Source of the DNA: a virus
Reading direction: 5' to 3' (one strand)
Virus record (IMG/VR): IMGVR_UViG_3300050021_000294
Coordinates: 1-60,288 of that record
Length of the DNA stretch: 60,288 nt
The notes under the pieces were generated by a model that saw nothing but the letters and a program-made list of their open reading frames with translations, was not told where the DNA came from and ran no database searches. Below are positions 72 to 46,034 of this stretch, piece after piece. The position numbers and the translations under genes were made by a program. The number at the start of each line of letters is the position of its first letter. Positions within the stretch are counted from its first letter, which is position 1.

Positions 72-1658
72 ATGCTCATGTCTCCAGACTTATTTCTCGA
101 TTGCATCCTCTATATCATCAATGACAAAACGGAGCAATCTCGCAATCTCGTTCGTGAATTAGTTAATCTTTATGAAACAGATGCCCGCAATAATGCAACG
201 ATAGACAATGACATCGTACGTTTTTATATTCGCATTATTAAAACCATTATGGATACGGGTGTTTCAAAACAAAATCCAGATGAATTACGAATGATTTTAC
301 TGAAGTTTCAGTCAGATGCTGTATTATCAAAGCGTACTGAAATTTATAAACTATTAAACGATACATTTATGTCAACAGAACTATTGACTGAAGAAAAGCG
401 CTTACAGTATTTTGAACGTATTCAAAACGTTCTTATCATGTATCGCTGCAATAAGATGGCCGGAAAGTTTTACGGTGCGCTTGCTAAAGCTGGGGATATG
501 ATCAATCCATTTGATCAAATAAAAGAATTGCGTAAACTTTCTGGTATTGCCAAAGAAGTTGAAACGGCTTTTGATGATACAAAATCATCTAGTTCTCAGG
601 GTATTTCACTCATTGATAAGATTGATTTGTCCGATAAAGAATCTATGAAAGTGGGTTTGGACAAATATAAAGAACGAGCGGTATCTGGTGTTGTGCGACT
701 TGGTCTACAAGGACTTAATCGCATACTCGGAAAACGTGGTGGTCTTACGCGTGGGGAATCTTTAGTATTCTACGCACTTCCCCATCATTATAAATCTGGT
801 ATGTTGATGAGTGTTGCTGGATGGATTGCTCTCTACAATACACCCGTTTTAAACAGAGAAGATGCTGGAAAGAAGGCCCTGGTTCTTCTCATATCACTTG
901 AGAATGAAGCCTATCAAAACTTTGTTTGGATGTTTCGTCATTTCTACCAAACAATCAATCAGATGTCATCGGACCATATGACAGATGAACAAGTTACCGA
1001 TTGGACGTATACTGCATTTTCTGCCAAAGGTTATTCATTGATTATTGAACGCCATTTACCTTCAAAGTTCAACTATCCCCAATTTGTTGAAACTGTTGAA
1101 CGGTATGAGAATTCTGGTTATGTTGTTGTTACAGCATGTCTCGACTATCCCAATCTTATGGCAAAAGATGGAATTACAGCAGAACCTGCCGGACGACCCG
1201 ATCTTGCCGTGCGTGCTCTCTTTAGCGCATTATGCAACTATACCAAAACCAAAGGCATTACCTTTGTTGGAGCACATCCTCTCCATCGCGATGCTAAGAA
1301 GATTGCCGCTAGTGGTATTGTCAATGTCGTAAAACGCCTTGATACGAGTCATTTAGCTGACTCATTTGATGTGGCTCGTGAAATCGATGTTGAAATCTTT
1401 ATTCACATTGAACGAAACTTAGAGGGTGCTGTATATCTAACAATGCAACGTGGTAAACATCGTTATGTCGACGATACTCCAATTGCACACCAGTATACCG
1501 CATATCGGTTTCATCCTATCTACGGTATCAGCGACGATTTGTTATTACAGGCTGAATTTGTATCGGACATATACTCAGATCCCCGTAGTTCTGAAGGCAT
1601 GCACGGGATTCCAGATCAACCCCACGAAACTGATATTGAAGAAGTTTTAATCTTCTAA
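72..1658 (+). CDS. DnaB-family replicative helicase-like ATPase
   Basis: Probable hexameric replicative helicase (RecA-fold, DnaB family) that would unwind phage DNA ahead of the replisome. The first 170 or so residues are helical with no recognised motif. A DnaB-like core follows: GGLTRGESLVFYALP leads into a P-loop-like segment (about residues 234-242) reading HHYKSG, and a beta strand ending in SLENE (about 270-280) matches the DnaB Walker-B-proximal SLEM region. The P-loop is non-canonical: the glycine before the lysine is Tyr. The C-terminal third (THLADSFDVAREIDVEIFIHIERN) looks like the DnaB segment that judges between DNA-bound states. The ATG at 72 follows GGGAAC. A structured hairpin element begins immediately at the stop codon. 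Family level is fairly secure; a DnaB/RadA-like recombination ATPase is the alternative. Confidence 0.72.
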   Translation: MLMSPDLFLDCILYIINDKTEQSRNLVRELVNLYETDARNNATIDNDIVRFYIRIIKTIMDTGVSKQNPDELRMILLKFQSDAVLSKRTEIYKLLNDTFMSTELLTEEKRLQYFERIQNVLIMYRCNKMAGKFYGALAKAGDMINPFDQIKELRKLSGIAKEVETAFDDTKSSSSQGISLIDKIDLSDKESMKVGLDKYKERAVSGVVRLGLQGLNRILGKRGGLTRGESLVFYALPHHYKSGMLMSVAGWIALYNTPVLNREDAGKKALVLLISLENEAYQNFVWMFRHFYQTINQMSSDHMTDEQVTDWTYTAFSAKGYSLIIERHLPSKFNYPQFVETVERYENSGYVVVTACLDYPNLMAKDGITAEPAGRPDLAVRALFSALCNYTKTKGITFVGAHPLHRDAKKIAASGIVNVVKRLDTSHLADSFDVAREIDVEIFIHIERNLEGAVYLTMQRGKHRYVDDTPIAHQYTAYRFHPIYGISDDLLLQAEFVSDIYSDPRSSEGMHGIPDQPHETDIEEVLIF

Positions 1659-1659
1659 C

Positions 1660-1716
1660 CGAGATCTGAGTGGATCTCGCTAGAGCTTATCTGATCTTTG
1701 ATCAGATAAAGTTAAC
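1660..1716 (+). repeat. Double-hairpin AGTTAAC module, copy A
   Basis: Starts in the stop codon region of the helicase gene. It has two consecutive hairpins: 1660-1679 (stem CGAGATC / GATCTCG) and 1687-1709 (stem TTATCTGATC, TTT loop, GATCAGATAA), joined by CTAGAGC and followed by AGTTAAC. The second hairpin is identical to that of copy C after the chimallin-like gene (21750-21772). It may be a terminator, a 3' end stabiliser or a protein-binding site; there is no T-run directly after it. Confidence 0.6.
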
Positions 1717-1800
1717 TAAGAAAATCGTATATTTGTTTGTTGTAACAATAACATTTAGCAGTTGATCTAGTGGTATCTGAATAATAAAAAACACAGATTA

Positions 1801-4062: not shown

Positions 4063-5481
4063 ATGGGTCTTTTGGATTCGATAGATTTTAAAGAAAGCGC
4101 ATTCCAACCTTACTTGAACACCGGAACATTACTTGATGTTCAAGCAGGCGTATTCATTCCAGGTAGTCATGGTGGTATGATTTTAAATGGTGGATTGAGT
4201 ACCACCAATGCAGTTGTTGGTAGAGAACAAATGTTCAAGTCTACCGAACTCATGTCTTACATTGTACGTGCAATGAAACACTATCCTCAATCTGAATGTT
4301 TCATATATGACACAGAATATGCTCAGAAGAAAGATCGATTGATTAAATTTTCAACTTTTTCAGATTATAACACGTTTGATGGTCGCTTAAAGATTTCCAC
4401 ACCAGCTGAAGAAACAGCAGAAGAATTTTTTGAAAAAGTTAAAGCTATGTGTGCTTATAAGCTTGCCAATCCAAAAGACTTCATGGTCGATTCTCCGCTA
4501 CTGGATCCCCGCACCGGAAATCCCATGAAAGTCTGGATTCCAACCTTTGTTGTATTCGACAGTTGGTCTGAAATGACCTCTGGTAATGTACAAGGCATTC
4601 TTGAAACAAAAGTTCTTGGATCTTCAGATACTAATATGATATTTATGAAAGATGGCATAATCAAAAAGATGATGTTATCTCAAATTCCTAGATTGGCCAC
4701 AATGGCTGGTGTATACTTTATGATGTCTGCACATCTTGGTAATAAGTTCGAACTCAATCCTCGGGTGACATCTCCCAAAAGTCTACCCTTTATGAAAGCC
4801 GCTGACAAACCCAAAGAAGTAGGATCAAATTTTAACTTCTTAATGTCAAACTATCTCGAAATGCGCAAAGTTGAAGTTTTGGTCGATGATAAAATACCTA
4901 TCTATCCAACAGACGGATCGAGTGATTCAGAACTTAGTGAAGTAACCGCTATCATGTTGCGGTGTAAGAACAACATGAGTGGAACATTGCTACCGATGGT
5001 CGTTAGTCAAACCTCAGGCATCATGTCGGATTTGAGTAATTACAATTACATTCGTAAAAACGAATATTTTGGATTACTTGGTAGTAAAGTTCACCACAAA
5101 CCAGCTATGACAGATATTAGTGTTGGACGCACCACTATCCGAGAGAAGCTAAATGATCCAAAACTGGCACATGCGATTGAACTGTTGGCTCAGTTATGTT
5201 ACATCCAAAACAATTGGGTTCAATCTCCGGGTGCCGAAGTTAACTTTTCTATGAAGCCCGAAGTTCTTGCTGAAAAACTATTAGCAAGTGATTCTCCAAC
5301 GACATCCGATATATTGGAAAGTCGTAGTTGGTGGACATACGATAAGACAAATAAACAACCGTATCTTTCACTTTACGACGTTCTGGCAATCGCACAAGGT
5401 GTTTACAAAGCCAAAGGTGTCTCACTAGCGGGTCTTGTAGTACCGAAGCCTTCAGTTGTTACATCTAAAAAAGCAGTCTGA
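4063..5481 (+). CDS. RecA/UvsX-like recombinase ATPase
   Basis: Probable strand-exchange ATPase of the RecA/UvsX type, for recombination-dependent replication and repair. About residues 29-48 read AGVFIPGSHGGMILNGGLST and lead into a P-loop-like GREQMFKST (53-61); T4 UvsX also has Phe-Lys-Ser in its Walker A. The strand ECFIYDTE (78-85) corresponds to RecA FIDAE with the catalytic Glu, and TFVVFDSWSEM matches the Walker B strand. YFMMSAHLGNKF fits the L2-proximal strand. Length (472) exceeds UvsX (about 390), with extra C-terminal sequence. The ATG at 4063 is chosen because AAGGA stands about 9 nt upstream; the frame is open to 3991. An unusual DnaB/RadA paralogue is possible. The gene ends at a strong hairpin. 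Confidence 0.65.
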   Translation: MGLLDSIDFKESAFQPYLNTGTLLDVQAGVFIPGSHGGMILNGGLSTTNAVVGREQMFKSTELMSYIVRAMKHYPQSECFIYDTEYAQKKDRLIKFSTFSDYNTFDGRLKISTPAEETAEEFFEKVKAMCAYKLANPKDFMVDSPLLDPRTGNPMKVWIPTFVVFDSWSEMTSGNVQGILETKVLGSSDTNMIFMKDGIIKKMMLSQIPRLATMAGVYFMMSAHLGNKFELNPRVTSPKSLPFMKAADKPKEVGSNFNFLMSNYLEMRKVEVLVDDKIPIYPTDGSSDSELSEVTAIMLRCKNNMSGTLLPMVVSQTSGIMSDLSNYNYIRKNEYFGLLGSKVHHKPAMTDISVGRTTIREKLNDPKLAHAIELLAQLCYIQNNWVQSPGAEVNFSMKPEVLAEKLLASDSPTTSDILESRSWWTYDKTNKQPYLSLYDVLAIAQGVYKAKGVSLAGLVVPKPSVVTSKKAV

Positions 5482-5494
5482 TAAGACCATAATA

Positions 5495-5526
5495 CTAGTG
5501 GGGATCGCCATAGCGATCCCCACTAG
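5495..5526. terminator. Bidirectional hairpin terminator
   Basis: Perfect 14-bp stem (CTAGTGGGGATCGC, loop CATA, complement) between the converging RecA-like gene (+) and the small membrane protein gene (-). Confidence 0.75.
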
Positions 5527-5539
5527 GTTTGGTAAATAC

Positions 5540-5881
5540 TTAATGTGGGACTGTATAAATCGGACATTTACGATCTGATTTAATCCAAGCTGCTTCTGAT
5601 AAATGTAATTGTGATACGGTATCTTCAATGGTATTGAGTTTATTGACAGAAGTATCTAACATATTATTTTGCAAAATAAGTTTTTGTGCAATAACATCTT
5701 GTTGAACTGTCACTGCTACTAAATTGGGATTGTTGCTTGAAGTTGTAGATGCTGTAGATAGAATGGGATAGTCTAAAACTAGAAAATGGTACCCTGTATA
5801 AATAGCTGAAAGAAAACCTAAAACGGCGATAGTTTCACGGAAGGATGCATATAATCCACCAGCTCTTGGAATGAGCATCAT
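5540..5881 (-). CDS. Small single-pass membrane protein
   Basis: 113 residues with one clear hydrophobic segment (about 17-37, TIAVLGFLSAIYTGYHFLVL) after a short N-terminus, then a polar helical region (about 60-100) with coiled-coil character (LILQNNMLDTSVNKLNTIED). The ATG pair at the start follows AAGGAG at good spacing. It sits alone between two hairpins, on the same strand as the reductase gene. This layout resembles a spanin or holin-associated protein, but no lysozyme is adjacent, so the function is open. Confidence 0.7.
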   Translation of the reverse strand: MMLIPRAGGLYASFRETIAVLGFLSAIYTGYHFLVLDYPILSTASTTSSNNPNLVAVTVQQDVIAQKLILQNNMLDTSVNKLNTIEDTVSQLHLSEAAWIKSDRKCPIYTVPH

Positions 5882-5983: not shown

Positions 5984-8383
5984 CTAGATCGGACAAATAC
6001 CCGAAGCACACTGGAGATGAACCAAATCAATTTCTTCGTTGTCGTTCTCAACTTTGATATTTTGAACAAGTTCCACAAATCGCTCCAATGAAACTTCTTC
6101 TTCTGGAAGATACTCATATCCCATTTCAGCATCGGATTTACTTGGAAGAATAGCACAACATCTGACAGTGGATTGATGCTCTCGCACGATAGTACGAAAC
6201 GCTTCTACATCAAAGTTATTGGTCAATACTTTCAGTGTGTAGCTTATCTGATTTCCTCTATCTTTACCGATCCAATACTTTTCTAACAAACGCAACCATT
6301 GATATTGATCAGATGGAGATGCCTCACTGGCGGTAACGACACGTTCACCAATACCAAGACGAACCAATAGAGGTACTGTTGGAAATCCAACAATTGTCAT
6401 TCCTTGGAAAGTCTTAAGCCCTCGCATTGGATATCCTTGGGATTCGTATTCAGCAAGTCGTGGATCGGAACCAACATCCCATTGACGAGTATCTGAATTT
6501 TGAGTACCTTTAAATTGAACCCAACGAAGATATTGACGACGGGCTGGTAGGTGAACACCTTCAGTTAAACCAAACAATTTCGAGGTAGATCCGGCCGGTT
6601 TCACAGTCGTTACAGTAATTGGATCATTCATTCCTAGAAATTCAGAATATGAACAACTCTCATCTTTAGCTGCAAATGAAAAACGCTCCATCATGTTCCA
6701 GAATGGTGCTGACTTGATAGGATCTAGTAGATCATTAAAATCATAACCAAACCGCATCCAAGCATATTCATGTAATCCAGTTGGACCAATACCAATACGG
6801 TTGGTACGAGCAATTTCTTTGCCATAAAGGGCATTCATCGTATTGACACGAATCAGAAATCTTACACCCAATCGCACAGATTCTTCGATACGATCGTCCC
6901 ATCGCTCAGCCCACTCGTCTGAGATTCCTCCAGGTTCGAATGTCATCAGATCAAGCGGACAGGCAAGTAGTGGGGCAAAATCAGCAATGACACATACGCC
7001 ACCAGCCACATGGAGCGAAATTTCGGAGCATGGATTAGTGGTTACAGGGAATCTAGACACTGCACTTCGACGAGTCAGTTCTGCTAACAGGCCACATGCC
7101 TCATCAACATGATAACGATCACTTTGAAAATCTTCACCATTTTCATAAACTGGACGATCCCTGGCACTACCAGTACGATGGTCTTCGAGTTTATCGACAT
7201 TGATAAATCCAGGTTCGCCATTTACATACGCACATAGCGTTACTTCGTCGAATACGGCGTGGGCATGAATAGACAGTGGATCGTCGGTTGCTTCTGCTTG
7301 AACCAGTGACCAAAATGTCTTATCGACCATTACCGAATGATTGGCAGTCCACAGTCCACCTTCACTCTTGATTCGAATAAATGCAAGAATATCACGATCG
7401 CGCCAACTTTTGGTTGCCATTCTTGCAGCGCGACGTGCTCCACCAACCTGAACTTCAATCGAGAAGTAATGGTCGATGCGCAATGCTTGTTCCCAGAGCC
7501 ACATTTTAGACTTAGCCAACATGACATGATTGCGAAGATTCAAGAAAGCGCGCATCACGGAAACGGGGCCGGAAGCTGGACGGTTTTGCATTCCACCGAT
7601 GGGAGCACCTAATCGACGAATATGTGAGAACTTTAACAAGAGAGTCTTATTACTCTCGTGTCGGAAGGCCATTGCTTCGAGAATCTCGACTGCTTTACCC
7701 CATCCCTCACGACTGTCGGCGATGTCGTGTTGGATCGTATCTGGCGGAATACTGGAGAGGTCTGATACAAAATTATTTGCAATATATTGGCGCATAATAC
7801 CAGTTGGATCGGTTGTAGTACCATATGGCAATATACCGAGATCAACACCAAGTTGACATTGTGATTTGACATCATGGGGATAATCAGGATGTTCTGGGGA
7901 TAAATATAACAACAACGTTGGTGCGGCTTGCCAGTCCACAACGATAAGTTCGTCATCATACGAACGACCGACGCCTGCGCCATTCAGTAACAAATAGAAC
8001 TTAGCAAATGTGGTAATGGCTGTGGCGCAATTCGAGAAAACTTCGATATTTCTTAGGGATTGCGACATATCTCCATGTTGAAGATGTCGACCAGAAGTGA
8101 GCAATGCGCCAGTAGCGATAGCATTGCGCAATTGCTTCTGTTCATTACATTCGTCATCCATGAGGGGATGACCCAGAAGACTCATATTACCAGCAGCTAC
8201 GCGATCTGCAACACGTCCAAATGACTCATCATCACCTTCACGAAACACAGTACGACGAGCAACTGCAATGCCCATACCCGGATCTAAAGTTCTGGAGGTT
8301 ACTGGTATATGACCAAAATGATTTGTTGCAATAGTCGACGATATCGACATTTCCGATTCGGACAATTTCATCGCATAGTTCAT
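5984..8383 (-). CDS. nrdJ: Class II (adenosylcobalamin) ribonucleoside-triphosphate reductase
   Basis: Reduces ribonucleotides to deoxyribonucleotides with a B12-derived radical, supplying DNA precursors without an NrdB subunit or oxygen. The 799-residue protein follows the monomeric Lactobacillus leichmannii type. It has VFSNCATAITTF with Cys119, a loop-like NGAGVGRS (134-141), GGARRAARMATKSW (314-327), the active-site NPCSEI with Cys452 and Glu454 (the family usually has NPCGEI), TVKPAGSTSKLFGLTEGVH, and a C-terminal CASGICPI (792-799), the redox-active Cys pair of this family (CEGGACPI in L. leichmannii). All essential cysteines are therefore present and the gene looks intact. The ATG at 8383 has GAAGG upstream; a second ATG 12 nt further in is possible. 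The gene forms its own minus-strand unit, bounded by hairpins at 5921 and 8559. Confidence 0.93.
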   Translation of the reverse strand: MNYAMKLSESEMSISSTIATNHFGHIPVTSRTLDPGMGIAVARRTVFREGDDESFGRVADRVAAGNMSLLGHPLMDDECNEQKQLRNAIATGALLTSGRHLQHGDMSQSLRNIEVFSNCATAITTFAKFYLLLNGAGVGRSYDDELIVVDWQAAPTLLLYLSPEHPDYPHDVKSQCQLGVDLGILPYGTTTDPTGIMRQYIANNFVSDLSSIPPDTIQHDIADSREGWGKAVEILEAMAFRHESNKTLLLKFSHIRRLGAPIGGMQNRPASGPVSVMRAFLNLRNHVMLAKSKMWLWEQALRIDHYFSIEVQVGGARRAARMATKSWRDRDILAFIRIKSEGGLWTANHSVMVDKTFWSLVQAEATDDPLSIHAHAVFDEVTLCAYVNGEPGFINVDKLEDHRTGSARDRPVYENGEDFQSDRYHVDEACGLLAELTRRSAVSRFPVTTNPCSEISLHVAGGVCVIADFAPLLACPLDLMTFEPGGISDEWAERWDDRIEESVRLGVRFLIRVNTMNALYGKEIARTNRIGIGPTGLHEYAWMRFGYDFNDLLDPIKSAPFWNMMERFSFAAKDESCSYSEFLGMNDPITVTTVKPAGSTSKLFGLTEGVHLPARRQYLRWVQFKGTQNSDTRQWDVGSDPRLAEYESQGYPMRGLKTFQGMTIVGFPTVPLLVRLGIGERVVTASEASPSDQYQWLRLLEKYWIGKDRGNQISYTLKVLTNNFDVEAFRTIVREHQSTVRCCAILPSKSDAEMGYEYLPEEEVSLERFVELVQNIKVENDNEEIDLVHLQCASGICPI

Positions 8384-9178: not shown

Positions 9179-10204
9179 TTATGCAATCCTCAAAATAATC
9201 ATGTTGGTAGATGGTTGACTGCTGGTGTACGAATTGAATTGTCCACCTCCGGCATCATACCAGCTGATAACGCCTGGATTATACTTGGCTGATACAGAAA
9301 CCCATGTACCACTTAGGGGGACAGTTCCTATTACAATAGGACCTAGGCTATTGTTACTAACGGGATCAATGGCATATGGAATGTTGGCGCTGGTGGTACT
9401 TACTGTATTAGAAATCCATGCCGACCCCGAACCATCTGTAACAAGGGGCCCTGCAAATGTAGTACCGATGCCAAATTGACCAGCTGCATTATATTGGGCA
9501 TAAGTTCCTACAGCACCTTGTGTAGTAACCACTGAGGTATTGACACCATCAGTACCATTTGTACCGGGAGCACCATTCGTTCCGGGAGCACCAGGTGCAC
9601 CGTTTGTACCGGGAGCACCAGGAGTACCCGGAGGTCCAGTTAGATCGCCAGTAACGACAATTGTTCCACCATTACTAAGCGTTAGTGTCAGAGTACCACC
9701 CGTAACACTAGCTGATGCAACAGAAATACCACCTGTAACAGTCAGAACACCACCAGCAAGTGTAGCTCCAACAACAGAAGAAACTGGACCGGCAGTCCAT
9801 TCACCGGAACCACTTCCCCCAGCAATGGTTAGTACGCCGCCAGCAAGTGTAGCTCCAACAACAGAATTAACAGTACCAGCCCCCCATTCACGAGCAGGAA
9901 GTGCCGCCACTGCTGCTGTGATCGCTGTGGAAATAGCAGTTGTCATTTCTACAGTTGTAACAACACCAGAAGCATCGAGTACTGCCATTTGTGATACAAA
10001 TGTAGTGAGTTCATTTAATGTTAAGAGTACTGGAAGTGCCGAGTAGAGAGTTACACCATCGCCCATTTTAAGAACTGTGGTATCGACGGCATAAACAACC
10101 ATTCCAAGCGGAACTGGAATTAATATAGAATTCCAAACCGCCTGGGTGCCACCAACAAATTGCGTAACTGCATCAATAACTGTAAGATTTGGACTACCAC
10201 TCAT
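9179..10204 (-). CDS. Tail fibre protein with collagen-like repeats
   Basis: 341 residues. The first 100 or so residues (PNLTVIDAVTQFVGGTQAVW, GDGVTLYSALPV) match the N-terminus of the spike protein at 11296-13038, so this is a shared adaptor probably docking to the baseplate. Next comes an internal duplication (SVVGATLAGGVLTI and SVVGATLAGGVLTV about 25 residues apart), then Gly-X-Y collagen-like repeats (about 190-220: GPPGTPGAPGTNGAPG and on), a classic trimeric fibre shaft. The C-terminal 110 residues are strand-rich and should form the tip. AGGGG stands 8 nt before the ATG at 10204. In phages such fibres bind host surface receptors; the collagen part and repeats make this a likely site of length variation. 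Confidence 0.85.
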   Translation of the reverse strand: MSGSPNLTVIDAVTQFVGGTQAVWNSILIPVPLGMVVYAVDTTVLKMGDGVTLYSALPVLLTLNELTTFVSQMAVLDASGVVTTVEMTTAISTAITAAVAALPAREWGAGTVNSVVGATLAGGVLTIAGGSGSGEWTAGPVSSVVGATLAGGVLTVTGGISVASASVTGGTLTLTLSNGGTIVVTGDLTGPPGTPGAPGTNGAPGAPGTNGAPGTNGTDGVNTSVVTTQGAVGTYAQYNAAGQFGIGTTFAGPLVTDGSGSAWISNTVSTTSANIPYAIDPVSNNSLGPIVIGTVPLSGTWVSVSAKYNPGVISWYDAGGGQFNSYTSSQPSTNMIILRIA

Positions 10205-21662: not shown

Positions 21663-21780
21663 AGTTAACCGAGATCTACTTAGATCTCGCTCGAGCTCAC
21701 AATCAAAGATTGTGAAGTTAACCACGATCTAAGTAGATCGTGTTCGAGCTTATCTGATCTTTGATCAGATAAGGTTAACT
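21663..21780 (+). repeat. Double-hairpin AGTTAAC modules, copies B and C
   Basis: Two consecutive modules right after the chimallin-like gene, bounded by AGTTAACC (21663), AGTTAACC (21716) and GGTTAACT (21773). Module B: stem CGAGATCT with loop ACTT, linker CTCGAGC, stem TCACAATC with loop AAA. Module C: stem CACGATCT with loop AAGT, linker TTCGAGC, stem TTATCTGATC with loop TTT. Stem bases differ between modules yet stay paired. The loops of B are complementary to those of C (ACTT/AAGT, AAA/TTT), and the outer AGTTAACC and GGTTAACT can also pair. Related to copy A at 1660. Function unknown. Confidence 0.7.
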
Positions 21781-27729: not shown

Positions 27730-27759
27730 TCAGTCAATATCTCTACCGCATTTTAGATA

Positions 27760-27767
27760 TATATTAT
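27760..27767 (+). promoter_or_regulatory. Early promoter TATATTAT
   Basis: Context TTTTAGATATATATTATTTA matches the other early promoters apart from the last base (T for C). It stands about 35 bp before the tnpB-derived leader element and is the only visible promoter for the genes from 28043 on. Confidence 0.65.
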
Positions 27768-27801
27768 TTATTTGTATCTGTAACACCATTATTCAAAGAA
27801 A

Positions 27802-27975
27802 GGATACAACAGTATGCTTACAGCACGCGTCTATCGTTTGTATCCTTCTGGGGAACAACGAGTTCAACTAGCCCAACACTTCGGTTGCTGCTCGGTGAGG
27901 GCTCTTTGTAAGTCAACCAGACTATCGGTTGCAGTCCCTATGAAACGAGAAACATCAGAAATGATGTGGTACATT
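27802..27975 (+). ncRNA. tnpB-derived structured leader RNA, copy 1
   Basis: A conserved element of about 174 nt shared with 43647-43815. It begins GGATACAA, then an ATG (27814) and codons that read MLTARVYRLYPSGEQRVQLA QHFGC, the signature start of IS605-family TnpB (HTH_OrfB domain). Relative to copy 2 one extra C near 27887 shifts the frame. Beyond this the RNA keeps a 5-bp stem CAACC / GGTTG around the loop AGACTATC (27914-27931), an AGGGCT / AGTCCCT closing stem with one bulge, and a hairpin ACATCA-GAAA-TGATGT. Copy 2 has a different stem with the same loop. It resembles a guide-RNA-like tnpB 3' end fused to the tnpB 5' end. It is placed between an early promoter and the gene at 28043. 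Confidence 0.6.
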
Positions 27976-28042
27976 CAAATGTACTACTTGGTAGAAGACT
28001 ATTTTCAACCACCACCTTATACACCCAATAGGAGTACTTTCC

Positions 28043-28642
28043 ATGCAGTTATCGAGCCCATTCTCCGTGGGAAGTGTCAGTGCTGGTGCCCTTCTTGGTA
28101 CAACAGGTACTGCCGATCTTGTCCGTTCGATCAATGAATCACTTGGCGGCTCTGGACTCATTTCTACTGTAAGCAGTGCTGCAAGCAAGGGTCGCAATCT
28201 GTTCATCGAAAACGTACTTCGTCCTATCCAACGAGGTCGGGCTGAAGTGATGCAGCGGGTTAATATTCTGATGAATCCCGATGTCATCAGGCCCCTTATT
28301 GCCGATGCTGATTTTGCAGCAATTCCTCCATGCATGTATGAAGCTATCGTCATGTATCCGCCAGTTCGGAAATTGCTTGAACAAGGACGCATTTCTGGAT
28401 TTGGCTTTGATCCCGACTGGCTTCCAAAAGAAGACACCTTTGGTAGATTGATTGCTAATGGAACATGTGAAGAAATACCAGATGTAGATGGTAAGCGTTG
28501 GATGACCTGGGAATGGCACAGCGGCGATCCGAAAGTTAGTGAAAGTGATCTGGATGCTATTGAAATTACCAGACAGAACATCGAACGACTCATTAACACA
28601 ACACGTATCGATCCAACTGATTTTCCAAATGACCGGGGGTAG
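28043..28642 (+). CDS. Unknown protein (199 residues)
   Basis: AGGAG 8 nt before the ATG. The N-terminus is Gly/Ser-rich (SVGSVSAGALLGTTGTADLV), then a helix, then a middle with MNPDVIRPLIADADFAAIPPC and an acidic end. No transmembrane segment is evident. The gene is the first after an early promoter and the tnpB-derived leader, so it is likely expressed early. Its role is unknown; the N-terminal pattern could suit a virion protein. Confidence 0.65.
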   Translation: MQLSSPFSVGSVSAGALLGTTGTADLVRSINESLGGSGLISTVSSAASKGRNLFIENVLRPIQRGRAEVMQRVNILMNPDVIRPLIADADFAAIPPCMYEAIVMYPPVRKLLEQGRISGFGFDPDWLPKEDTFGRLIANGTCEEIPDVDGKRWMTWEWHSGDPKVSESDLDAIEITRQNIERLINTTRIDPTDFPNDRG

Positions 28643-43526: not shown

Positions 43527-43621
43527 AATTTCCCCAGCATCCGTTAAAAATTATCTCGCAATCTCATAATATGATAATGTCCAAAATCTTTAGTAGATTG
43601 TGCTGATCAATATTTTAAATA

Positions 43622-43629
43622 TATATTAC
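43622..43629 (+). promoter_or_regulatory. Early promoter TATATTAC
   Basis: Exact consensus in TAAATATATATTACTACAAC. Drives the leader element and the two polymerase genes behind it. Confidence 0.85.
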
Positions 43630-43646
43630 TACAACAGAAGGGAGGG

Positions 43647-43815
43647 ATACAATATGCTCACAGCTCACATCTATCGTTTGTATCCTTCTTTGGAACAGAG
43701 GATACAACTAGCCCAACACTTCGGTTGTGCTCGGTGAGGGCTCTCGTAAGACATCTGAGACTATCCAGATGCAGTCCCTGTGAAACGAGAAACATCAGAA
43801 ATGATGTGGTACATT
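43647..43815 (+). ncRNA. tnpB-derived structured leader RNA, copy 2
   Basis: Second copy of the element at 27802, in the leader between an early promoter and the RNA polymerase beta gene. The tnpB-like frame is intact here and ends after 27 codons (43654-43737). The downstream RNA has a 6-bp stem CATCTG / CAGATG around the same AGACTATC loop (43752-43771) that copy 1 holds in a stem of different sequence, then AGTCCCT, and the identical hairpin ACATCA-GAAA-TGATGT. Compensatory stem changes with a fixed loop are strong evidence of a functional RNA. Confidence 0.65.
43654..43737 (+). pseudogene. TnpB N-terminal fragment / 27-residue upstream ORF
   Basis: Reads MLTAHIYRLYPSLEQRIQLA QHFGCAR then TGA: the canonical first residues of IS605 TnpB (Y-R-L-Y-P-x-x-E-Q, F-G-C-A-R). 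GGAGGGATACAAT precedes the ATG. Compared with copy 1, half of the differing codons are synonymous and two of the others are Val/Ile swaps, as if the peptide had been under selection. It may be a relic or a working upstream ORF. Confidence 0.6.
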
Positions 43816-43850
43816 ACTAAGATGAAATGCACTATCCATGGGAGTTGAAA

Positions 43851-46034
43851 ATGACAGTTGATATCCCCCCAAAATCTATCTTGTACAATACCACAAGTCT
43901 TACAGAACCCGCAGCTGTTTTACATAGAGACTATCCCTATTTGAATAATGTAAATATAGACCCACGACTCTCGGGTTTTCAGGCGGGATTAATTCCATTT
44001 CTTCCTGGAACATCGAGTCCACGTGTAGATATGTATGCCAGTCATCTCAATCAGGCAATGGTGCTGGATGGTGGTGAATTTTCAATGATTTTCGCTGGTC
44101 CTGAGCAGAATCTTGGAGAATATGAATTCAGTAAAACACGACGCAATCAAGATATTACAGTACTTGAAGTTATTCCAAAATACCCAACTGTATTTGGTCC
44201 AAATCGCATTGGTAAGAATCCATCACTTACGGTAATCTATGTTGGTCATACTGACAAAAAATTACACTATATGACGATCGATTCCTATCATAAAGGAAGT
44301 GATGGATTTGGATATGAACTCGTTTGGGAAAACACCCATCTGTTAACTCAACCAAATACACCAATAACCAAAGAGACACGTCTAACAACTTCGCCCAATC
44401 ACCGAGATGGTTTGTATGGTATGGGGTTAAATCTCAATGTCGCGTATATGACACTTGAGGAAACCATCGAAGATGCCATGTTGCTTAGTGAATCTGCCGC
44501 TGAGAAAATGATGACGAGTGAATTGCATGAAGTTAAAATCATTGTTCGTCCAGATCAATATCCCCTGAATGTCTATGGACATGAAGATGAAGTTCGATTT
44601 ATGCCGGACATCGGTGATATCGTAAATGCCGATGGAATTCTTGCAATCTTCCGACCACTGAATGCTGAAACTATAATCTCGGATACAACGAAAGGGTCGC
44701 TTGACGAACTTCAACAATTACACGATGATGTTTATGTTGCACCAGCAGGTTCTGTTATTCTAGATATCACTATCAATGCAGCACATTCATCCAAAGCACC
44801 AAAATCACTCTATGCTCAAGCCGACAAATATGTTCAAGCCAGTAATAAATATTGGCAAGAAATTGTTAGAGTGTATGGTCAAAACCGTCAGACCTATGAA
44901 CTTGCTGAGGAATCCAACACTCTTTTGAGTACGGCCATTCAACGATTGACTGCTGCTGGTATAGCAGTACAGCTACCTGGTGTATCGAGAAAGCCTAAGA
45001 CCAAATTGATCGGTAAGAATAAACAACCGATTGAGTTTATGGAAATCACTATCGTCTTTGCAACAAAAAGAAAGTTTGCTCCGGGATTCAAGATAACTGG
45101 CCGAGATGGTGCTAAAGGAGTATGTTGTCGTATTCTTCCAGATAAGTATATGCCGATTGACGATTATGGATTTCGTGCCGATCTTGTGGTCGATCCGAGT
45201 TCTTGTATCAGTCGCATGACGATGGGTCCGCTTTATGAACCGGCGATTAATCGAACTTCTGAATTCGTACGTCGTCGTCTAGCTGAGTTGTTTCCGAGTG
45301 ATCCGAGAGCTGCAGGAGCAATGCTACTCGATTATCTTGCAGATATCAATCCAAATTATTCAGCACATATTCGTGAAGTTATGTCGACCGATCAAGATAT
45401 GGCTGAGTTTGTCAAGTATTGTATTGATACGAGAATCAATATGCATATTCCACCTGGATTGAATACTATTGGATTGGAGCTTATCCAAAAACTCAAAAAC
45501 AAATGGAAGATTCCACTTTCTCCAGTGACGTTTACGCAATGTGATATGGATAATAATGTCATTGCACAGTTCAGAACTAGAGCTAATGTTTGTATCGGAT
45601 CTAAATATACGTATTTGTTGTGCAAGATTCCAGAACCATCCTCCCCTGGGGTTGCTCGCATCAATCAATACAATACACCAATGAAGTCTCCACCATCAGA
45701 TAAGTTCATGTATCCGATCAAACAGTCACCCATTCGTACTGGTGAAGATGAACTTCGAATTATTGTTATGGATCTTGAACATCCACAAGAACATGAACGA
45801 CTGATGTGTCTTCAAGGGAGTTCGCCGAAAGGAATTAATGCCGTTGCCGAAGCACTTCTCAATGAACCATATCCAACTAGAATCAAACGAATTCCCCTCA
45901 GCAATACGCAACTAATGACGTCGAATACTGTGATTCAGGTATTTGATCATATGCTATCTACCATGGGTGTTGGTATAACGACTGCTGGTCCAGTTCCCAT
46001 TCTCGGCGATCTCTTAAGGGATGTAAAGAAATGA
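43851..46034 (+). CDS. RNA polymerase beta subunit, C-terminal half
   Basis: 727 residues. Matches the second half of bacterial beta: SSPRVDMYASHLNQAMVLDG (about 55-74) corresponds to the segment around ANRALMGxNMQRQA, GLNLNVAYMTLEETIEDAML (192-211) to GQN..VAFMPW.GYNFEDAI, and KITGRDGAKGV (414-424) to KMAGRHGNKGV, where the second Lys contacts the nucleotide. The conserved DDYGFRADLVVDPSSCISRM equals the [20 protein letters not shown] segment. ATG at 43851 is chosen for GGGAG 7 nt upstream. It overlaps the beta-prime C gene by 4 bp, exactly the pairing of phiKZ gp71-73 with gp74, so this is probably the non-virion polymerase that transcribes late genes. Confidence 0.92.
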   Translation: MTVDIPPKSILYNTTSLTEPAAVLHRDYPYLNNVNIDPRLSGFQAGLIPFLPGTSSPRVDMYASHLNQAMVLDGGEFSMIFAGPEQNLGEYEFSKTRRNQDITVLEVIPKYPTVFGPNRIGKNPSLTVIYVGHTDKKLHYMTIDSYHKGSDGFGYELVWENTHLLTQPNTPITKETRLTTSPNHRDGLYGMGLNLNVAYMTLEETIEDAMLLSESAAEKMMTSELHEVKIIVRPDQYPLNVYGHEDEVRFMPDIGDIVNADGILAIFRPLNAETIISDTTKGSLDELQQLHDDVYVAPAGSVILDITINAAHSSKAPKSLYAQADKYVQASNKYWQEIVRVYGQNRQTYELAEESNTLLSTAIQRLTAAGIAVQLPGVSRKPKTKLIGKNKQPIEFMEITIVFATKRKFAPGFKITGRDGAKGVCCRILPDKYMPIDDYGFRADLVVDPSSCISRMTMGPLYEPAINRTSEFVRRRLAELFPSDPRAAGAMLLDYLADINPNYSAHIREVMSTDQDMAEFVKYCIDTRINMHIPPGLNTIGLELIQKLKNKWKIPLSPVTFTQCDMDNNVIAQFRTRANVCIGSKYTYLLCKIPEPSSPGVARINQYNTPMKSPPSDKFMYPIKQSPIRTGEDELRIIVMDLEHPQEHERLMCLQGSSPKGINAVAEALLNEPYPTRIKRIPLSNTQLMTSNTVIQVFDHMLSTMGVGITTAGPVPILGDLLRDVKK

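Follow-up and report, generated by a model that had tools for sequence, protein, structure and literature searches.

The two copies of a sequence of about 170 nt in a phiKZ-like phage, each of which joins the first codons of an IS605-type tnpB to a structured RNA, raise the question of whether such a sequence is a guide RNA working apart from its gene, a leader regulator or the remains of a transposon. The window analysed is the whole 60,288-nt stretch of IMG/VR record IMGVR_UViG_3300050021_000294. We confirmed the two-copy element reported in the initial annotation (86% identity), with the start of copy 2 moved from 43647 to 43645. Overall, 32 of the 175 alignment columns differ between the copies (18%), while the last 46 nt hold one difference (45/46 identical; shuffle p 0.0001). 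At the 5′ end of both copies, GGATACAA can pair with TTGTATCC in a hairpin that folds better than shuffled sequences and whose loop of ∼25 nt contains the tnpB start codon. The junction between the tnpB and RNA parts, TGCTCGGTGAGGGCTC, is identical in both copies, and a single deletion event is therefore the simplest ancestry for the two. The coordinates of all features are collected in Table 1.

Table 1. Features of the two element copies and their surroundings (positions in the window).
Feature	Positions	Strand	Basis or remark
Element, copy 1	27802-27975	+	86% identical to copy 2
Element, copy 2	43645-43815	+	86% identical to copy 1
Early promoter TATATATTAT, copy 1	27758-27767	+	motif scan; predicted RNA start near 27774
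Early promoter TATATATTAC, copy 2	43620-43629	+	motif scan; predicted RNA start near 43636
5′ hairpin, copy 1: GGATACAA (27802-27809) / TTGTATCC (27838-27845)	27802-27845	+	fold z -2.3
5′ hairpin, copy 2: GGATACAA (43645-43652) / TTGTATCC (43678-43685)	43645-43685	+	fold z -3.1
tnpB codons 1-26 (MLTARVYRLYPSGEQRVQLAQHFGCC), copy 1	27814-27891	+	PF12323 E 5.8e-9
27-codon tnpB remnant MLTAHIYRLYPSLEQRIQLAQHFGCAR, copy 2	43654-43737	+	PF12323 E 1.5e-9; TGA 43735-43737
Omega-RNA scaffold, copy 1	27891-27975	+	R2 at locus E 0.014; helix comparison
Outer helix, copy 1	27891-27894/27946-27949	+	helix comparison
Stem 1, copy 1	27898-27903/27933-27939	+	
Variable hairpin, copy 1	27914-27931	+	
Terminal hairpin, copy 1	27952-27967	+	
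Omega-RNA scaffold, copy 2	43730-43815	+	R2 at locus E 0.0018; helix comparison
Outer helix, copy 2	43730-43733/43786-43789	+	helix comparison
Stem 1, copy 2	43737-43742/43773-43779	+	
Variable hairpin, copy 2	43752-43771	+	
Terminal hairpin, copy 2	43792-43807	+	
Would-be guide, copy 1	27976-27994	+	predicted from TnpB reRNAs (PMC8612924); boundary TACATT or TTCAA
Would-be guide, copy 2	43816-43834	+	predicted
Gene after copy 1: phrog_3254, function unknown	28043-28642	+	
Gene after copy 2: phage RNA polymerase beta-type subunit	43851-46034	+	phrog_3295 E 1.6e-135

The proposed tnpB origin of the coding part was borne out by PF12323 (HTH_OrfB_IS605), which matched copy 1 with E 5.8e-9 and copy 2 with E 1.5e-9, the match covering profile positions 1-27/28 only in both cases. 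The nuclease gene is thus cut to 26 codons, against ∼400 in tnpB, and is too short to encode the nuclease. In copy 2 the tnpB frame ends at the TGA, within the RNA part; in copy 1 it continues through the RNA part to 28137 because of a 1-nt insertion. There was no sign of an intact IS605/IS1341 transposon, since the PF12323 search of the 60-kb window returned only N-terminal tnpB fragments, and no tnpB or tnpA gene was recognised there.

Directly 3′ of codons 1-26, both copies carry the part first described as a guide-type RNA. It was compared with right ends collected behind intact tnpB genes in plasmids, phages and two sampled phyla. Many of these carry the motifs GTGGAG, GTAAG and TGAAGC-NN-GAA and a TCAA end, along with a variable and a terminal hairpin. 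A covariance model of ten intact-tnpB omega-RNAs, built with the window copies excluded (R2), found held-out tnpB right ends with E-values down to 1.8e-8. At the two loci, which were fixed beforehand, the best R2 match was full length, with E 0.0018 for copy 2 and 0.014 for copy 1. Over the whole window the copies scored E 0.54 and 4.1, below significance, and would thus not be discoverable by R2 alone. A wider model, R3, brought no improvement on R2, matching copy 1 only (E 1.3), and the Rfam families gave no match at gathering score and nothing meaningful at either locus.

The outer helix provides a further comparison. In known omega-RNAs, a helix forms between the four bases preceding TGGAG and the four within GAAR....AA; its strands are CCTG/CAGG (11), CTTG/CAAG (8) or CTTG/CAGG (3). 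The window copies have CTCG/CGAG, which covaries with CCTG/CAGG and CTTG/CAAG, and full pairing was almost never seen in unrelated pattern matches of the same DNA. Together, the R2 match at the fixed loci, the outer helix and the adjoining tnpB fragment argue that the 3′ half is, as judged by sequence, a TnpB omega-RNA and right end, in agreement with the guide-type nature first assigned to it.

Around the invariant loop AGACTATC, the paired arms are CAACC/GGTTG in copy 1 (27914-27918/27927-27931) and CATCTG/CAGATG in copy 2 (43752-43757/43766-43771). The initial annotation had described this as full compensatory change; the stem letters and the compensation stand, but its extent depends on the alignment. 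Anchoring on the invariant GTAAG and GCAGTCCC yields two double substitutions and one paired base insertion, none of them uncompensated, the chance of all 5 pairs being restored by an equal number of 3′-arm changes being 0.022; anchoring on the loop yields differences at all five pairs. The covariation persisted once true omega-RNAs were added. The AGGGCT/AGTCCCT stem and the GAAA-capped hairpin are invariant in both copies and so conserved as initially claimed, without covariation between the copies.

These data bear on the main rival explanation, a somewhat unlikely one, in which the element is a passive relic: a deletion derivative tolerated as a neutral leader between promoter and gene, its conservation dating from a mobile-element past or reflecting gene conversion between the copies. 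Such a relic would account for the frameshift in copy 1 and for the RNA half, whose fold on its own is no more stable than that of shuffled sequences (z -0.8 and -1.2), but would leave unexplained a compensated stem with no broken pair and the 45/46 identity at the 3′ end despite the 18% divergence over all columns. Selection in the present place, earlier selection and gene conversion fit the two copies alike, and the comparison cannot tell between them.

A second structured element is also present twice in the window (1656-1717 and 21719-21780), directly after gene ends. It contains TAACC, a hairpin with a compensatory change (CGAGATC/GATCTCG and CACGATC/GATCGTG), an invariant hairpin CTTATCTGATC-TTT-GATCAGATAAG and GTTAACT, and inverted copies lie nearby at 21669-21722; it looks like a 3′-end or terminator element. 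Elsewhere, collagen-like and tandem repeats at 9526-9891 (- strand) fall within ORF 9179-10204, which probably encodes a fibre or structural protein.

The two ends of the element differ in their state of preservation. The right-end hairpin is present in both copies, with the right-end letters GGTACATT. The GC-rich left-end hairpin, which lies upstream of most of the compared tnpB genes, is absent upstream of the ATG in both copies, where the sole palindrome is GGATACAA/TTGTATCC, and neither therefore appears transposable. The missing left end favours a passive relic, and so does the fact that IS605 deletion derivatives are common, as with the PATEs, the palindrome-associated transposable elements of Haloquadratum (PMC3119063). 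By its anatomy, the element is an internally deleted IS605-type (PATE-like) derivative in which the guide RNA appears to be retained, and we consider it very probable that it is a miniature tnpB element carrying an omega-RNA.

Both copies lie 3′ of TATATATTAT/C, a phiKZ/AR9-type early promoter, in sense orientation and at a distance of 35 nt (copy 1) or 16 nt (copy 2). The motif agrees with the early promoter consensus of AR9, AAATATATATTAT-6N-G (PMC5312081), and with the phiKZ motif TATATTAC (PMC7058600). The motif scan and the phrog matches thus confirm that each copy is flanked, as suggested, by an early promoter on one side and a gene on the other; the RNA polymerase beta-type gene has its likely start at 43851, after GGGAG. 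That both copies are sense-oriented and directly behind an early promoter speaks against a passive relic. The source phage is a divergent phiKZ relative, with a polymerase 23-29% identical to those of known phages and 36% identical to that of the nearest IMG/VR contig by polymerase alignment. For copy 2 only, the syntenic site could be compared in two distant phages, Erwinia phage AH06 and Proteus phage 10 (polymerase 26-29% identical), where the promoter TATATTATCT and a ∼40-nt leader are present and the element is absent; it is thus an extra segment set between the gene and its conserved promoter. A model in which the element inserted at the TTAC of the early promoter was rejected, because copy 2 matches it loosely and copy 1 shows TTAT at another spacing.

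Each copy makes up the whole 5′ leader of an early gene, which raises a second alternative, that of an exapted cis-regulatory leader whose 5′ hairpin and omega-RNA fold would, with no need of TnpB, regulate how the early gene behind it is translated or how stable its message is. We regard this as quite unlikely. The hairpin over the tnpB start is found in both copies and is better folded than shuffles, and the related AR9 has long 5′ UTRs (PMC5312081), but the short ORF is unconserved (copy 2 has a stop within the RNA part, while copy 1 reads through) and the two downstream genes are unrelated to each other.

TnpB trims its own mRNA to omega-RNA, with ∼16 nt of the right flank serving as the guide (PMC8612924, PMC10278001). 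The bases after 27975 and 43815, which the initial annotation had proposed comparing with host or phage targets, have none in the window: neither would-be guide has a second match there at ≤2 mismatches. Solitary CRISPR repeats serve as RNA anti-CRISPRs, and by analogy the phage omega-RNA, with a harmless guide, might be a decoy that ties up a host TnpB soon after infection begins. The early promoter, the retained scaffold and the unmatched guides are in keeping with a decoy; a host TnpB and its action against phages are, however, both hypothetical, and an arbitrary flank ends every element by default, making this reading very improbable.

A third copy was absent from 50 phiKZ-like IMG/VR relatives searched with model R1, which was built from the two window copies and has the variable stem registered one base off. 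The shift comes from the underlying MAFFT alignment (A2), from which pair counts are therefore unusable. R1 recovered no tnpB right ends, and blastn of the element against phages and plasmids gave nothing above noise. Scanning IMG/VR with exact and gapped patterns produced one match and a scan of genome contigs two, all chance matches inside unrelated coding sequence. The lack of a third copy among the 50 relatives is consistent with a passive relic. Further copies in relatives, on which the initial annotation had laid weight, are thus missing from these genomes and from the phage, plasmid and viral collections as far as the sequence goes, but not as regards the architecture, which recurs in the jumbo phage G239 (IMGVR_UViG_3300037502_002993; 220 kb, phiKZ-like).

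Among the 50 phiKZ-like records, PF12323 identified three intact tnpB genes in G239 and one further match there that ends at profile position 27. The latter belongs to a miniature in which 26 codons of a different TnpB are fused to a complete omega-RNA (R2 E 4e-12), a fusion that arose independently of the window element. G239 has six copies of this omega-RNA: three follow tnpB genes, one is in the miniature, one keeps a left end but lacks an ORF, and one is a solo copy that lacks a left end. An ORF in a group I intron region (Rfam RF00028) contains the solo copy; the intron interrupts the RNA polymerase beta gene, with HGG on one side and KGVIC on the other. Along with the window copies, these tnpB-less omega-RNAs indicate that a guide RNA without tnpB arises repeatedly in such phages. 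An intact tnpB in trans, which the initial annotation had proposed looking for, is thus lacking within the 60-kb window and present in a related phage, so that, from the gene content of G239, TnpB is apparently available in trans in at least one such phage. The contrast once drawn with a dead transposon was not established: the window element is built like an IS605-type element with an internal deletion, and G239 shows such deletions arising.

The intact G239 tnpB also has a start-codon hairpin (AGGAGGTC/GACCTCCT), which weighs against a cis-regulatory leader because the 5′ hairpin of the window element may be a tnpB inheritance. At the 5′ ends of the G239 tnpB genes (L202-L204), AGGAGGTC is the ribosome-binding site and GACCTCCT, its complement, lies near the beginning of the coding sequence; a translation control of tnpB shared with GGATACAA/TTGTATCC of the window is possible.

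Several other features of these phages were observed. The G239 gene split by the intron (RF00028 E 8e-17) is found at L210 5246-6512, with ORFs at 6072-6464 and 5645-5863; by eye, the solo omega-RNA is inside a putative HNH-type ORF, with no Pfam match at E 0.1. Group I introns also occur in the RNA polymerase beta region of phiKZ-like contigs L161, L173, L177 and L188. On G239 stretch L211, a HEARO RNA, an IscB-type guide RNA, lies at 5353-5562 on the - strand (RF02033, E 3e-24). The same stretch has a terminal-only remnant of ∼50 bp, GTGGTCGTAAAACCCCGTCATTTAAGAAGGGGAGTGTCAA, with the left end joined to the right end, which resembles the 52-bp PATEs of Haloquadratum.

Most likely, the element is now, or was recently, a guide RNA for a trans-acting TnpB. 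An internal deletion would have fused tnpB codon ∼26 to the beginning of the omega-RNA and spared the scaffold and right end. The product, a miniature, non-autonomous IS605/IS1341-type element, would form the leader that separates a phage gene from its virion-polymerase early promoter. The early transcript would begin just upstream of the element, and a TnpB from elsewhere (the phage genome beyond the fragment, or the host) could trim the leader to omega-RNA, with the leader sequence 3′ of the right end as the guide. The resulting ribonucleoprotein might then cut empty-site genomes, favouring spread or retention of the cassette. We give this explanation as a whole, a miniature tnpB derivative with a trans-trimmed guide RNA, an even chance of being right, and present use in trans by a TnpB slightly less than that.

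TnpB guide RNAs are usually treated as tied to their own tnpB gene. Here, two phiKZ-like phages hold guide RNAs without the gene, one of them together with an intact TnpB. A broader proposal, which we consider unlikely, has stand-alone cassettes of TnpB guide RNA retained by jumbo phages at their genes for RNA polymerase and at other early genes, with TnpB supplied in trans and the guides directing cleavage of cassette-less genomes of co-infecting or related phages. If true, such a system would parallel homing endonucleases, but with RNA guidance and with a single shared nuclease that gains a guide from every cassette. It can now be tested whether several guide RNAs are served in trans by one TnpB, and whether phages use them in competition or early gene control.

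Among known systems, the element resembles the reRNA/omega-RNA of IS200/IS605 TnpB (PMC8612924, PMC10278001) in its scaffold helices, its TGAARC-NN-GAA strand and a terminal hairpin at the right end, downstream of tnpB sequence. It differs in its terminal hairpin and right-end letters (GGTACATT instead of the usual TCAA/TTCA) and in its setting, with 26 tnpB codons left and no tnpB in the window. It shares with the G239 miniature the joining of 26 tnpB codons to a complete omega-RNA in a phiKZ-like phage; the G239 solo copy, too, lacks a left end, and it lies within the RNA polymerase beta gene region. The TnpB clade and RNA sequence are different, however, and in G239 the miniature has a left-end hairpin and tnpB is intact. 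TldRs (PMC13418256) are phage-borne TnpB repressors that are nuclease-dead and work with guide RNAs; they are likewise a case of a tnpB-derived guide RNA in a phage, but the window has no TnpB-like protein and a regulatory role of the element is hypothetical. Like the PATEs (PMC3119063), the element is an IS605-type deletion derivative without a transposase gene; unlike them, it keeps the 5′ coding end of tnpB and the omega-RNA, shows no visible left-end palindrome, and stands as a leader behind early promoters in a phage. On these sequence features, PATEs are the nearest known class; the element departs from them by keeping its guide RNA, by having apparently lost its left end and by lying in an early leader.
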